A stretch of 64,000 nucleotides of DNA from Candidatus Magnetocorallium paracelense. Lineage in GTDB: Bacteria > Nitrospirota > Thermodesulfovibrionia > Thermodesulfovibrionales > Magnetobacteriaceae. A program made the position numbers and the translations under genes. The DNA lies in contig JAREWP010000090.1 in the NCBI GenBank assembly GCA_029001845.1, forward strand, positions 124,001 through 188,000, read 5' to 3'. The first letter of the stretch is position 1; every line of letters begins with the position of its first letter. The notes under the pieces were generated by a model. The model did no database searches. It was not told the origin of the DNA and was given only the letters and a program-made list of their open reading frames with translations. Below, one piece after another: positions 19,698-24,231 of the stretch.

Positions 19698-20771
19698 ATG
19701 GCAAAAATAGACGCCTTTTTTAAGTTGATGAACGAACAGGGGGCATCGGACCTTCACATGGTGTCCGGCTCGCAGCCCATATTGAGGATAAGAGGAGAGA
19801 TGGAGAGGATCAAATACAAGACCCTCGACAATGACGAACTCAAGGCAATGCTTTATGAGATCGCCCCTGAAGATAAAGTTAAGATTTTCGAAGAGACCGG
19901 AGATATCGACTTCGGTTACGAAGTGGCGGGTCTCGCCAGGTATCGTGCGAATTTCTTTCAGCAAAAATGGGGAATCGGAGCTGTTTTCAGAGAAATTCCA
20001 AGTGAAATACTTACTGTAGAGCAATTGGGTCTTCCCGATATTTGCAAAAAGTTTGCAGCCCTTCATAAAGGAATGGTGCTTGTGACAGGCCCGACAGGAA
20101 GCGGTAAATCCACAACTTTGGCGGCAATTATGGATCATGCCAATAAAACTCGTAAAGATCATATTATTACAGTAGAAGACCCCATCGAATTTGTCCATAA
20201 GAGCCAAAGCTGTATTGTTAATCACAGAGAAGTGGGGATGCACACAAAGTCCTTTTCCAGTGCTCTCAGAGGCGCCCTCCGTGAAGACCCCGATATTATA
20301 CTGGTGGGAGAAATGAGAGATCTCGAAACGATCCAGCTCGCCCTTGAAGCAGCGGCAACAGGCCATCTGGTCTTTGGAACTCTCCATACACAGAGCGCCA
20401 CAAAAACAGTGGACAGGGTGATTGATGTTTTTCCCGCCAATCAGCAAAACCAGATCAGAACGACTCTGTCAGAGACATTAAAAGGCGTTATTGCACAAAA
20501 TCTTTTTAAAAGAGTCGATAAAAAAGGTCGATGCGCGGCATTGGAGATTCTCGTGATTACTTATGCCGCCTCAAATCTCATCAGGGAAGCAAAAACCCCT
20601 CAGCTTACCAGTGTCATGCAAACCGGGAAAAAACTTGGAATGCAGACATTGGACGACGCCATCCTCGATCTTCTGCAAAAGGGCTGGGTCAGCCCCGAGG
20701 AGGCTTATGACAAGTCCATCGATAAGAAAAGATTCGTTACGTTCCTGTCCGGCCCGCCACCGGAATTTTAA
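19698..20771 (+). CDS. pilT: Type IV pilus retraction ATPase PilT
   Basis: A 357-residue PilT-family hexameric ATPase: MAKIDAFFKLMNEQGASDLH start, Walker A GPTGSGKSTT (about residue 130), Asp box (TVEDPIEFVH), Walker B (DPDIILVGEMRD) and His box (ATGHLVFGTLHTQ). The C-terminal ALEILV motif is close to the AIRNLIRE-type region needed for retraction (here ASNLIREAKTPQL). Its role is pilus retraction and twitching. The start follows a GGAG site. It is separated from pilB and pilC by the PBP1A gene and read in the opposite direction. Confidence 0.92.
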   Translation: MAKIDAFFKLMNEQGASDLHMVSGSQPILRIRGEMERIKYKTLDNDELKAMLYEIAPEDKVKIFEETGDIDFGYEVAGLARYRANFFQQKWGIGAVFREIPSEILTVEQLGLPDICKKFAALHKGMVLVTGPTGSGKSTTLAAIMDHANKTRKDHIITVEDPIEFVHKSQSCIVNHREVGMHTKSFSSALRGALREDPDIILVGEMRDLETIQLALEAAATGHLVFGTLHTQSATKTVDRVIDVFPANQQNQIRTTLSETLKGVIAQNLFKRVDKKGRCAALEILVITYAASNLIREAKTPQLTSVMQTGKKLGMQTLDDAILDLLQKGWVSPEEAYDKSIDKKRFVTFLSGPPPEF

Positions 20772-20865
20772 GTTGTCACCTGAATCGATACGATTTTTAA
20801 ATCTTTGTGACTTTATGTGAGAAATAATATATGAGACAGCCGGCTAATTACCAAAGGAGGATTTT

Positions 20866-23178
20866 ATGGCTTTAATAGATTTTTTAAAATCCGTTTATGA
20901 ATTCGGCGGAATAAATGATAATGATTTAAATACCATTGCCGAGAATTCGGAGATTCTCGAATTCGGTGACAGCGCAATGATTCAGGGAAGAGGCGATATC
21001 GACAGGTATCTGTGGGTGGTGTATGAAGGCAAGGTAGAGGTCGTGCTCACTGAAAAAAACGGCCTGCCAAGAACAATTGCCACCATGCAAAGAGGTGAAA
21101 TATTCGGCGAAATGTCTCTCATGACAGGCGAGCCGGCGGGCGCAGATATAAAGTCTTCCGGTCTCAGTAAGGCCGTGAAAATAAACAGGGATATTTTTAC
21201 AAAAATACTTTTTGGAAATCCAAGCGTATTAAACAGAATATCCAAGACCATAACAAAGAGGCTTATTCAAAGGGAAAAGGACTTATCCGGTCTCTCCGAC
21301 TTTGGCTCTCCTTTGGTTTCCAATGAAGATATTTATGACCTTAATTTTACATCGGCAAAGGGACACTTCAAAATATTGGTTATTAACAGCCGTATGACAT
21401 CGGTCAAATATGCACTTTTCGATACAAAAAACAGCCATCCCTTAATCGAAGGATTGATAGATAAAATCGGGACCGAAGAACCCTACCACAAAGTGAAACG
21501 AAAAGAGGAGGTTACTGAGGCGCAGACAGATATAAAAGACACCAAAGAGGCGATAGAACTTCTTCTCTCTACAATAACATCTCCTTCATTAGGTTTGATA
21601 AAGGACGCCGGCGAGATCGACGCCGTAGGACACAGAGTAGTACACGGTGGTGATAAAATGTTTGCTTCCACTCTCATAGACGACTCGGTAGAGGATATTA
21701 TCAGGGAGTGTTCTCCCCTGGCTCCTTTACACAATCCTTATAATCTTGAAGGAATCAGGGCTATGAAAAGCCTTGTGCCCAATACACTTCATATTGCTGT
21801 GTTCGACACCGCTTTTCATAGTAATATGCCTGAACACGCATCCGCCTACTCACTACCACAGCATTTGAATGTGAAACGGTACGGTTTTCACGGAATTAAT
21901 CACAATTACGTTATGTTGATGGCTGCAACACATCTGAAACGTTCCATTGGAGAGATGAAAATAGTTTCCTGCCATTTGGGAAACGGTTCCTCCCTTTGCG
22001 CAATCGATCACGGCAGGAGTATAGATACAAGTATGGGGATGACCCCATCAGGAGGCTCGGTTATGGGCTCCAGAACCGGGGATCTCGACCCGGGTATTCT
22101 TATATACCTCATGCAGCTTGGCTTTTCGCCTGATGAACTGCATAAAATAATTAACAGAGAAAGTGGAATTAAGGGAATCAGCGGAATCAGCGGATATGTT
22201 TTGGATGTTTTAAAAGCCGCCGATGAAGGAAGTGAAAGCGCCAAAAATGCAATTACCATGTTTTGCTATTCCATCAAGAAATACATCGGCTCCTATATCG
22301 CAGCTCTTGGCGGGATCGATGTGCTCATATTTACGGGAGGGGTGGGAGAGAATTCCGCCGAGATACGCGCCAGAGTTTGTCACGGACTGGAAGCCTTCGG
22401 TATTTATGTTTTCGACGCAGCAAACAGGCTCGTGAAACCATACTCAAATGAAGTAAAAGTAATTTCTGAACCCGGTGCGGATAAGAAAATTATCGTAGTT
22501 CCCTCAGATGATAAAAGGATGATCGCACGGGAAACGCTTCATGCCGTTGAGAGACTCAGAACCGAGCAATCTTCGGTTTCAAGCTGGAAAAAACCGATAC
22601 CTGTGAACATATCGGCTCATCATGTACATGTTAATGAAGAGACCTTTCATCAATTATTCGGCAAAGACAGAAGCCTTACGCCAAAAGCACCTCTCAGTCA
22701 ACCGGGTCAGTTTGCATCGGAAGAGACCGTGAATCTCATAGGGCCTAAAGGCAGGGTCGATAAGGTGAGAATTTTAGGCCCCTACAGAAAGGATAATCAA
22801 GTAGAAATTTCCAGAACAGAGGAGTTTAAACTCGGTATCGATGCTCCGATAAGGGACTCCGGAGATATTGAAGGCACCCCGGGGATTGTAATAGAAGGCC
22901 CGGCTGGCCCGGCAAGACTGGAAAACGGAGTGATCTGCGCCAGAAGGCACATCCATATGTCTCCTGAAGACGCCTTGGGTTATGGTCTGCGCGACAGAGA
23001 TGTGGTTATGGTGAAAATAAAGTCACAGCGGGAGCTGATCTTCGGCGACGTTCTCGTTCGTGTACATCCCTCTTTCAAACTGGATATGCACATAGATACT
23101 GACGAAGGAAACGCTGCGGAACATATACCCGGTACTATTGGATTTATAGAAGGAATACAATCGAGAGCTTATATGTAA
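20866..23178 (+). CDS. ackA: Three-domain fusion: cyclic-nucleotide-binding fold, acetate kinase, PduL phosphotransacylase
   Basis: A 770-residue protein. Residues about 10-140 form a Crp-type cyclic-nucleotide-binding fold (RGEIFGEMSLMTGEP); the Arg that holds the cyclic phosphate is not evident (PAGAD where PRSA-like is usual). Residues about 165-560 are acetate kinase: GHRVVHGGD, LAPLHNPYNL, AVFDTAFHSNMP, KRYGFHG, CHLGNGSS, GSRTGDLDPG and FTGGVGENS are all present, though the usual NxGSSS phosphate loop is NSRMTS. Residues about 570-765 match PduL phosphate propanoyltransferase, with zinc motifs HHVHV (about 583) and ARRHIHM (about 692). Together PduL and AckA turn acyl-CoA into acid and ATP through an acyl-phosphate that need not leave the protein. 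An AAAGGAGG site precedes the ATG. The gene is monocistronic. Confidence 0.88.
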   Translation: MALIDFLKSVYEFGGINDNDLNTIAENSEILEFGDSAMIQGRGDIDRYLWVVYEGKVEVVLTEKNGLPRTIATMQRGEIFGEMSLMTGEPAGADIKSSGLSKAVKINRDIFTKILFGNPSVLNRISKTITKRLIQREKDLSGLSDFGSPLVSNEDIYDLNFTSAKGHFKILVINSRMTSVKYALFDTKNSHPLIEGLIDKIGTEEPYHKVKRKEEVTEAQTDIKDTKEAIELLLSTITSPSLGLIKDAGEIDAVGHRVVHGGDKMFASTLIDDSVEDIIRECSPLAPLHNPYNLEGIRAMKSLVPNTLHIAVFDTAFHSNMPEHASAYSLPQHLNVKRYGFHGINHNYVMLMAATHLKRSIGEMKIVSCHLGNGSSLCAIDHGRSIDTSMGMTPSGGSVMGSRTGDLDPGILIYLMQLGFSPDELHKIINRESGIKGISGISGYVLDVLKAADEGSESAKNAITMFCYSIKKYIGSYIAALGGIDVLIFTGGVGENSAEIRARVCHGLEAFGIYVFDAANRLVKPYSNEVKVISEPGADKKIIVVPSDDKRMIARETLHAVERLRTEQSSVSSWKKPIPVNISAHHVHVNEETFHQLFGKDRSLTPKAPLSQPGQFASEETVNLIGPKGRVDKVRILGPYRKDNQVEISRTEEFKLGIDAPIRDSGDIEGTPGIVIEGPAGPARLENGVICARRHIHMSPEDALGYGLRDRDVVMVKIKSQRELIFGDVLVRVHPSFKLDMHIDTDEGNAAEHIPGTIGFIEGIQSRAYM

Positions 23179-23385: not shown

Positions 23386-24231
23386 TTATTGGGCAGGATT
23401 ATTTTTCAACTGACTAACTTCTTCCTTTAATACCTTCAGCTCTTTATTCTGCTTTATTACATATAGGGTAAGCTTTTCTATCTTTTCCAGGAGTTTACCG
23501 TTAAGGCTTATTATATCGACAGTAGGAGCCTTTTCAGGGTCTGTTACGACTCCCGGCAGGTGCTTTTCTTTTTTAATAAAACCCTCTAAGTCCTCAAGGC
23601 TTCTCAGTTTATAATCAGGCTCAAACACGTAATCCCTGTGAACCTGACCTGAATTGGTGGCGCCGATTGTTCCATCGACATGTAGGGTGTACTCCGGGTT
23701 CTTTGTGCCGATGCCGACGTTGCCGCCTTCCCTGATAACCATACGGTTGTCCTCGTACCATTCATCGAAGACCAGGGTGTCATTCTCGGCTACAATTTGC
23801 CACTTCCTGGTCCTGTCGGTGATGTTGTCAATCAGAAACCGACCACTCAGATGCAGATCAACCTCCGGGTTCGTTGTACCGATACCGACGTTGCCGCTTC
23901 CGTCAACATAAACCGCATCGATGGGATCACCGTCCGAAGCGTCCAGGGAATGTCTGTTATCATTTCCTTCATCGTTGCCGCTAAACTCAACGCCATCCTG
24001 ATAAAGGTCGCCTGTGAAATTAATATCTCCTTCTACATCTAATGTATAGTCAGGATTTGAAGTCTCAATTCCCACGTTACCCATTATCGCCACATCTCCG
24101 GTTACTGTTCTGACCTGTTCAGGCGCCTCCTCCAACTCATTATAATACCTCTCTTCTTCATTTGCAAGACAAAGACCGTTCATTATAAATACCATACTGA
24201 ACATCATCAGTAAAAGCAAAAAATGTTTCAT
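23386..24231 (-). CDS. Secreted fibre-like protein with GNVGIGT repeats and C-terminal coiled coil
   Basis: A 281-residue protein with a signal peptide (1-23, ending CLA|N). Three copies of the motif GNVGIGTxNPExxLHVxG follow (about residues 50-70, 112-130, 168-190), as in phage-tail-fibre-like and cell-surface beta-helix proteins. Then comes DYVFEPDYKLRSLEDLEGFI with KKEKHLPGV, a segment seen before the terminal coiled coil of such fibres. The end (about 240-280) is a Lys/Glu/Leu coiled coil. It is probably a trimeric surface or secreted fibre. A GAGGTG ribosome site precedes ATG 24231, and a GGAGT-GAA-ACTCC hairpin (24261-24273) lies in the leader. Confidence 0.65.
   Translation of the reverse strand: MKHFLLLLMMFSMVFIMNGLCLANEEERYYNELEEAPEQVRTVTGDVAIMGNVGIETSNPDYTLDVEGDINFTGDLYQDGVEFSGNDEGNDNRHSLDASDGDPIDAVYVDGSGNVGIGTTNPEVDLHLSGRFLIDNITDRTRKWQIVAENDTLVFDEWYEDNRMVIREGGNVGIGTKNPEYTLHVDGTIGATNSGQVHRDYVFEPDYKLRSLEDLEGFIKKEKHLPGVVTDPEKAPTVDIISLNGKLLEKIEKLTLYVIKQNKELKVLKEEVSQLKNNPAQ

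Follow-up and report, generated by a model that had tools for sequence, protein, structure and literature searches.

The gene at positions 20866 to 23178 raises the question of whether a single protein, in which the enzymes of two consecutive steps are fused, performs both of them. In anaerobes, the conversion of acetyl-CoA to acetate and ATP is central to energy metabolism. The original prediction, made from the window (the whole 64,000-nucleotide stretch of Candidatus Magnetocorallium paracelense DNA analysed here), described a 770-residue protein joining a cyclic-nucleotide-binding (CNB) domain, an acetate kinase (AckA) and a PduL phosphotransacylase, and proposed channelling of acyl-phosphate and possible control by a ligand. 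Its coordinates, strand, length and domain order proved exact by open reading frame and Pfam analysis, and the consecutive-step logic (PduL, then AckA via acyl-phosphate) was borne out as logic. The features of the gene are as follows.

20852..20865, plus strand: strong Shine-Dalgarno sequence (AAAGGAGG) and spacer, 5' of the ATG at 20866 (sequence)
20866..23178, plus strand: CNB-AckA-PduL fusion protein, 770 aa, A-type with an eroded nucleotide site (open reading frame, Pfam, homologues, AckA tree)
20971..21210, plus strand: CNB domain, aa 36-115 (Pfam PF00027)
21334..21363, plus strand: CNB-AckA linker, about aa 157-166, YDLNFTSA (alignment with homologues)
21370..22530, plus strand: acetate kinase domain, aa 169-555, with altered nucleotide motifs and a retained acyl pocket carrying E384D (PF00871)
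21385..21408, plus strand: PHOSPHATE1 loop NSRMTSVK, aa 174-181, canonically N-x-G-S-S-S-x-K (G9R, S10M, S11T in Methanosarcina thermophila numbering)
22195..22203, plus strand: LOOP4 YVL, aa 444-446, replacing D-[FM]-R (D283Y, R285L; alignment)
22510..22512, plus strand: D549, where M. thermophila AckA has Glu384, in the window copy only (alignment)
22600..23121, plus strand: PduL/PTAC domain, aa 579-752, retaining R103/S127/H204 and every zinc ligand (PF06130; 5cuo mapping)

The profile search confirmed all three domains above their curated cut-offs. The CNB match (cNMP_binding, PF00027, aa 36-115) scored 51.9 bits against a cut-off of 27.5, the acetate kinase match (PF00871, aa 169-555) scored 409 bits over the full profile (1-392), and the PTAC match (PF06130, aa 579-752) scored 250.5 bits against 25; TIGR00016 also recognised the acetate kinase above its curated cut-off (402 bits). 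An AlphaFold model built with 29 relatives had a mean pLDDT of 81.6, and Foldseek recovered the expected folds: M. thermophila AckA (1g99, E 9.9e-45), Rhodopseudomonas palustris PduL (5cuo, 1.3 Å over 185 columns) and CNB folds of the CRP family. The models do not discriminate an eroded site, as the window protein and the kinase-intact control L010, modelled from the same alignment, had equal confidence profiles with LOOP3 low in both.

The same full-length, three-domain protein was found in independent assemblies, which rules out a frameshift or an assembly join. Homologues aligning end to end at 51-61% identity are present in Syntrophales and in further Nitrospirota, among them Candidatus Magnetobacterium casense and Ca. 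Magnetominusculus; fusions from Planctomycetota and Lentisphaerota are about 41-43% identical to the window protein. A survey of relatives, as the original prediction had proposed, recovered complete proteins with the order CNB-AckA-PduL from Nitrospirota, Syntrophia and Planctomycetota/Lentisphaerota; the linker of the window protein resembles the (D)DPYDL.F[ST]SA linker conserved among its homologues. In Myxococcota, AckA-PduL was found with the CNB domain mostly undetectable. At least 33 of the 149 sampled Syntrophia genomes (the class of L010) encode an AckA-PduL fusion, most with a CNB domain. Among 148 sampled Nitrospirota genomes the fusion is limited to the family of the window, the other matching genomes encoding an ordinary stand-alone AckA. 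Ack-PduL fusions were already noted by Erbilgin et al. in 2016, who suggested channelling (PMC4784909); in the open-licence literature, we found no paper combining 'acetate kinase', 'PduL' and 'cyclic nucleotide-binding domain', and none on a pseudokinase of the acetate kinase family. Some Syntrophia genomes (G348, G364 and G413; loci L203, L204, L206, L208, L209 and L211) carry two kinase-intact fusions. This is an independent duplication, in which the second fusion has a more diverged CNB cassette (FGDMSVFTGNLVAFD).

The PduL domain of the window protein appears fully equipped. Using Rhodopseudomonas PduL numbering and published residue roles (PMC4784909), all ligands of Zn1 (H48, H50, E109) and Zn2 (H157, H159, H204) were found together with the phosphate-contacting R103 and S127, which upholds the predicted presence of a full PduL with both zinc motifs. 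All 58 family-conserved positions are unaltered.

The acetate kinase domain gave a different picture on its two sides. Its acetate/acyl pocket is complete (R91, V93, L122, D148, F179, H180, P232, R241); relative to M. thermophila AckA it carries G9R, S10M and S11T in PHOSPHATE1, D283Y and R285L in LOOP4, and E384D. At the PHOSPHATE1 positions N7, S10, S11, S12 and K14 the window copy has N, M, T, S and K, with Arg instead of Gly at position 9. The adenosine-pocket residues of LOOP4 are replaced by Y444 and L446; D283 is present in all 31 canonical rows of our alignment, and D283/R285 are not conserved across all AckAs (PMC5517563). Glu384 is replaced by Asp549, a conservative change restricted to the window copy. 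The description of the AckA catalytic blocks as intact thus stands for the acyl/acetate side, with the conservative E384D, but not for the nucleotide side. The altered NSRMTS loop was correctly recognised, yet the extent of the change was understated, given that D283, R285 and E384 are altered as well. Mutants of the M. thermophila enzyme indicated that the PHOSPHATE1, PHOSPHATE2, LOOP3 and ADENOSINE motifs are important for catalysis (PMC4390882).

These changes are shared by a clade. On the AckA tree, 13 Nitrospirota rows including the window copy form the A-type group (support 100/99), characterised by G9R, loss of R285 and D283Y (Cys in one row), with S10/S11 lost in most rows and N211H in every row except the window copy, which keeps N211. 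The clade retains N7, S12, K14, R91, D148, H180, R241 and the ADENOSINE glycine. Compared with the 31 canonical rows, 8 of 77 near-invariant positions have diverged: 7 of the 22 in nucleotide motifs, whose ranges we set from PMC4390882, and one of the 55 elsewhere, this being E385, which adjoins E384. The enrichment in nucleotide motifs was significant (Fisher p 0.0005), with the reservation that positions are not fully independent. None of the 9 acyl/acetate-site positions has diverged in the clade, and the group of paralogous and solo AckAs showed no divergence at any of the 77 positions. Four derived states, G9R, D283Y, E385K and N211H (the last absent from the window copy), have reached or nearly reached fixation, a pattern that, judged by these residues, is not random decay. 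Whole-domain identity was rejected as a signal of erosion, A-type domains lying below B-type domains (the second copies described below) by just 0-6 points in identity to the Syntrophales fusion, and in some cases showing no deficit; it is the motifs that carry the signal. Inactivity cannot be deduced from any one substitution, because N211S occurs in most Syntrophia fusions, many of whose genomes have no other AckA.

In the genome of the window organism (99.6% complete), AckA and PduL domains each occur only twice, all of them on two CNB-AckA-PduL fusions. The second fusion (G000:C91:6196-8478) is 45% identical to the window protein and presents the reverse condition. Its AckA shows the canonical residue at each motif position, with a score of about 495 bits versus 409 for the window copy, and its PduL scores 158 bits versus 250, with 18 of 58 conserved positions changed (including S45Q, Q74V, R97A, S127A, R194K and N211L). 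The comparison of relatives showed that this complementary pattern, as read from conserved residues, recurs across the bacterial family. In six second (B-type) copies that bear a PduL, 12-18 of the 58 conserved PduL positions are changed, with R103K in four of the six, and the B-type branches on the PduL tree are long (0.75-1.75, versus 0.22 for the window copy). PduL dN/dS was 0.15-0.28 in B pairs versus 0.05-0.12 in A pairs, AckA being low in both; these Nei-Gojobori values are approximate because some pairs have a dS close to 1. On the AckA tree, the B copies do not group together with support, and a single duplication is therefore indistinguishable from several.

In the casense-like genomes G153 and G154, the A-type fusion is accompanied by a CNB-AckA that has lost PduL (L154, L155). 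Relatives otherwise pair the A-type fusion with a B-type fusion or with a stand-alone AckA that retains the CNB-AckA linker. Stand-alone canonical AckAs at L124:5885-7180, L126:6669-7964, L128:5790-7082 and L160:3654-4988 retain the N-terminal linker DDPYDLNFTSA; these linker-bearing proteins are apparent products of gene fission. Four loci (L030:100-1140, L125:5462-6505, L127:6291-7334 and L129:5457-6497) encode 347-348-aa proteins made of an intact PduL and an N-terminal AckA remnant of about 150 aa that is not recognised by Pfam. Genus g2 carries both forms, a stand-alone AckA with the linker and a PduL with the remnant.

On the same strand as the window gene, a PilT/PilU-like type IV pilus ATPase (19698-20771, plus strand) stops 94 bp upstream; it is not conserved at other A-type loci, where we found no conserved operon or partner genes. 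A 281-aa protein encoded at 23386-24231 on the minus strand has 'NVGIGTTNPE' repeats and a tail-spike-chaperone-like C-terminus, and gave no Pfam match at E <= 1. B-type neighbours (a tRNA nucleotidyltransferase-type gene with DUF401, or TilS in the genome of the window) were not informative, and no microcompartment genes were recognised among the scanned neighbours of the fusion. Elsewhere in this genome, frames of 3,300-6,500 aa with repeated matches to AMP-binding acetyl-CoA ligase models (contigs C42, C100, C30, C81, C13 and C40) suggest an unusually NRPS-rich Nitrospirota genome.

Across genomes, a degenerate kinase in the fusion goes together with a canonical kinase elsewhere. All 18 genomes whose fusion has a degenerate kinase (12 Nitrospirota and 6 Planctomycetota/Lentisphaerota) also encode another AckA with canonical motif residues; where the fused kinase is intact, another AckA or a second fusion was present in 11 of 43 genomes. 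The associated Fisher value (2.6e-8) exaggerates the strength of this link, since the erosion began in one or two lineages and not in 18 independent events. Several of the genomes surveyed are MAGs of unstated completeness. Forty further fusions were fetched to test the correlation between kinase erosion and the presence of another AckA; the PHOSPHATE1 loop was intact in all 40 (36 Syntrophia and 4 Planctomycetota), including those of Planctomycetota without another AckA. Six Planctomycetota/Lentisphaerota fusions (L011-L014, L020, L032) have an even more degenerate kinase (N7S/A, G9R, S12D, K14R) and an intact PduL, and each of these genomes encodes a separate canonical AckA. A single origin of the erosion in Nitrospirota and in the PVC group was weakly rejected (held-together tree 24.9 log units worse, p-AU 0.027).

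No strong match to a classical Pta was found in the 11 f1-type relatives of the window's family (either none, or about 30 bits in frames of about 345 aa that are probably PlsX), and acetyl-CoA to acetate plus ATP would therefore need PduL and AckA from two proteins in these organisms. The genome of the window organism also encodes a classical Pta of 722 aa, which may explain why the B-type PduL is most eroded there.

Collectively, these data favour a partition of the two enzymatic steps between duplicated CNB-AckA-PduL fusions, the window gene being the PduL arm. Based on the sequence comparisons, we give this reading a probability of about 0.66. The window PduL would interconvert acyl-CoA plus Pi and acyl-phosphate plus CoA, and the acyl-phosphate would then be used in trans by the paralogous kinase of the sister fusion. 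The window AckA would make little or no ATP and is a probable pseudo-kinase. It is full length in all 13 A-type rows and evolves with a dN/dS of 0.07-0.13 (Nei-Gojobori), which indicates strong purifying selection and is near the value of its PduL. With its intact acyl pocket, this argues that the domain is not junk and that it probably serves in binding acyl-phosphate or acetate, in assembly or dimerisation, or in regulation of PduL. Several observations weigh against the partition. The same purifying selection and the many catalytic residues kept leave room for some remaining or modified kinase function. N211 is present in the window copy, and single-residue losses are weak evidence, as illustrated by N211S in Syntrophia without another AckA. 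The classical Pta means that the A/B pairing is not forced in the window's own genome, and the 18/18 correlation comes from two lineages only, the Nitrospirota A-type clade and the PVC group.

A more elaborate form of the partition is possible but doubtful. Here the A-type AckA would be a specialised pseudo-acetate-kinase whose kept acyl pocket, with the new PHOSPHATE1 Arg, detects acyl-phosphate or acetate. Together with a CNB domain that has ceased to bind cyclic nucleotides, it would gate the fused PduL. Kinase activity would be supplied in trans by the sister fusion, possibly by hetero-oligomerisation, and a similar loss would have occurred separately in Planctomycetota/Lentisphaerota fusions.

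It is unlikely that the AckA domain is catalytic with a changed phosphoryl donor or acceptor (pyrophosphate, phosphate or another nucleotide), or acts as an acyl-phosphatase, as might be imagined from the PPi-dependent acetate kinase of Entamoeba. Alteration of the donor-side motifs with retention of the acyl side would fit such an enzyme, and the fixed derived G9R, N211H and D283Y at low dN/dS suggest new selection. However, the greatest alteration is in the PHOSPHATE1 loop, which would be expected to contact whatever phosphoryl donor is used. The hallmarks of the Entamoeba enzyme are G331Q-I332M and an extra Gly in PHOSPHATE2 (PMC5517563); the window copy has G492-V493 and a PHOSPHATE2 (HLGNGSS) of normal length, and a PPi-type kinase of this kind was rejected for lack of the hallmark residues.

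We consider improbable a fully bifunctional enzyme, in which acetyl-phosphate made by PduL is converted to acetate and ATP by the fused AckA, with channelling and control by a CNB ligand. The three full-length domains, the intact acyl pocket and purifying selection on AckA would be in line with it, as would the homologous Syntrophia fusions, most of which look kinase-intact and are often the sole AckA. On the other hand, the whole clade selectively lacks near-invariant nucleotide-motif residues, the window copy adds E384D, and a canonical kinase is always encoded elsewhere in such genomes. Channelling of acyl-phosphate, although proposed for Ack-PduL fusions (PMC4784909), is for this reason doubtful into the window copy's own kinase site.

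Highly improbable is a decay of the AckA domain after duplication that would leave a PduL with baggage and no present role for the kinase part: the AckA remnants of genus g2 indicate that this part can be dispensable, and within its clade no AckA branch is longer than that of the window copy (0.59), but the dN/dS is too low for simple pseudogene-like decay and the domain is full length, with no diverged acyl-site position at clade level.

The regulatory part of the original prediction fared less well. Its observation of a missing Arg in the cyclic-phosphate pocket was correct: the phosphate-binding cassette FGEMSLMTGEPAGAD (aa 80-94) keeps the Glu and lacks the Arg, reading GEPAGAD instead of the usual GTPRAAT-type motif. 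No CNB-bearing relative that was inspected has the cassette Arg, even where the kinase is intact, and conventional control by cAMP or cGMP is therefore unlikely. The CNB domain may respond to something besides a conventional cyclic nucleotide, or may be structural.

A little-noticed fusion carries the acetate step widely in Syntrophia and magnetotactic-type Nitrospirota. The duplicate pair is a clear case from nature in which the two activities of a bifunctional fusion have apparently been divided between copies with the fusion unbroken, and relatives display intermediate stages (lost PduL, fission, AckA remnants). The Pta-AckA pathway was treated in a 2023 report as setting a marine magnetotactic Nitrospirota apart from freshwater ones (PMC10278575), and the fusion pair may bear on this distinction. 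For annotation, a strong acetate kinase score (409 bits) does not equate to a working ATP site, nor does a strong CNB score equate to cyclic-nucleotide control.

Compared with known systems, the window protein resembles CRP/PKA-type CNB domains in fold and in carrying FGE in its phosphate-binding cassette, but lacks the cassette Arg and a helix-turn-helix. Like the R. palustris PduL (5cuo), it has the zinc ligands, R103, S127, H204 and all 58 family-conserved positions; unlike it, its PduL has no encapsulation peptide and is fused to CNB and AckA. The PPi-dependent acetate kinase of Entamoeba histolytica (PMC5517563) is likewise an AckA homologue with a changed nucleotide side, but the window protein has neither the occluding ADENOSINE Gln-Met nor the PHOSPHATE2 insertion, its changes lying in PHOSPHATE1 and LOOP4. 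With M. thermophila AckA (ASKHA family, 1g99/1tuy) it has in common the fold and the acyl pocket (R91, V93, L122, D148, H180, P232, R241), and differs by the NSRMTSVK PHOSPHATE1 loop, D283Y, R285L and E384D. The Ack-PduL fusions described in 2016 (PMC4784909) resemble it in having AckA and PduL in one chain and no encapsulation peptide; the window protein differs in placing a CNB domain before AckA and in an AckA in which several nucleotide-site residues have been lost, two properties that go beyond the 2016 description.
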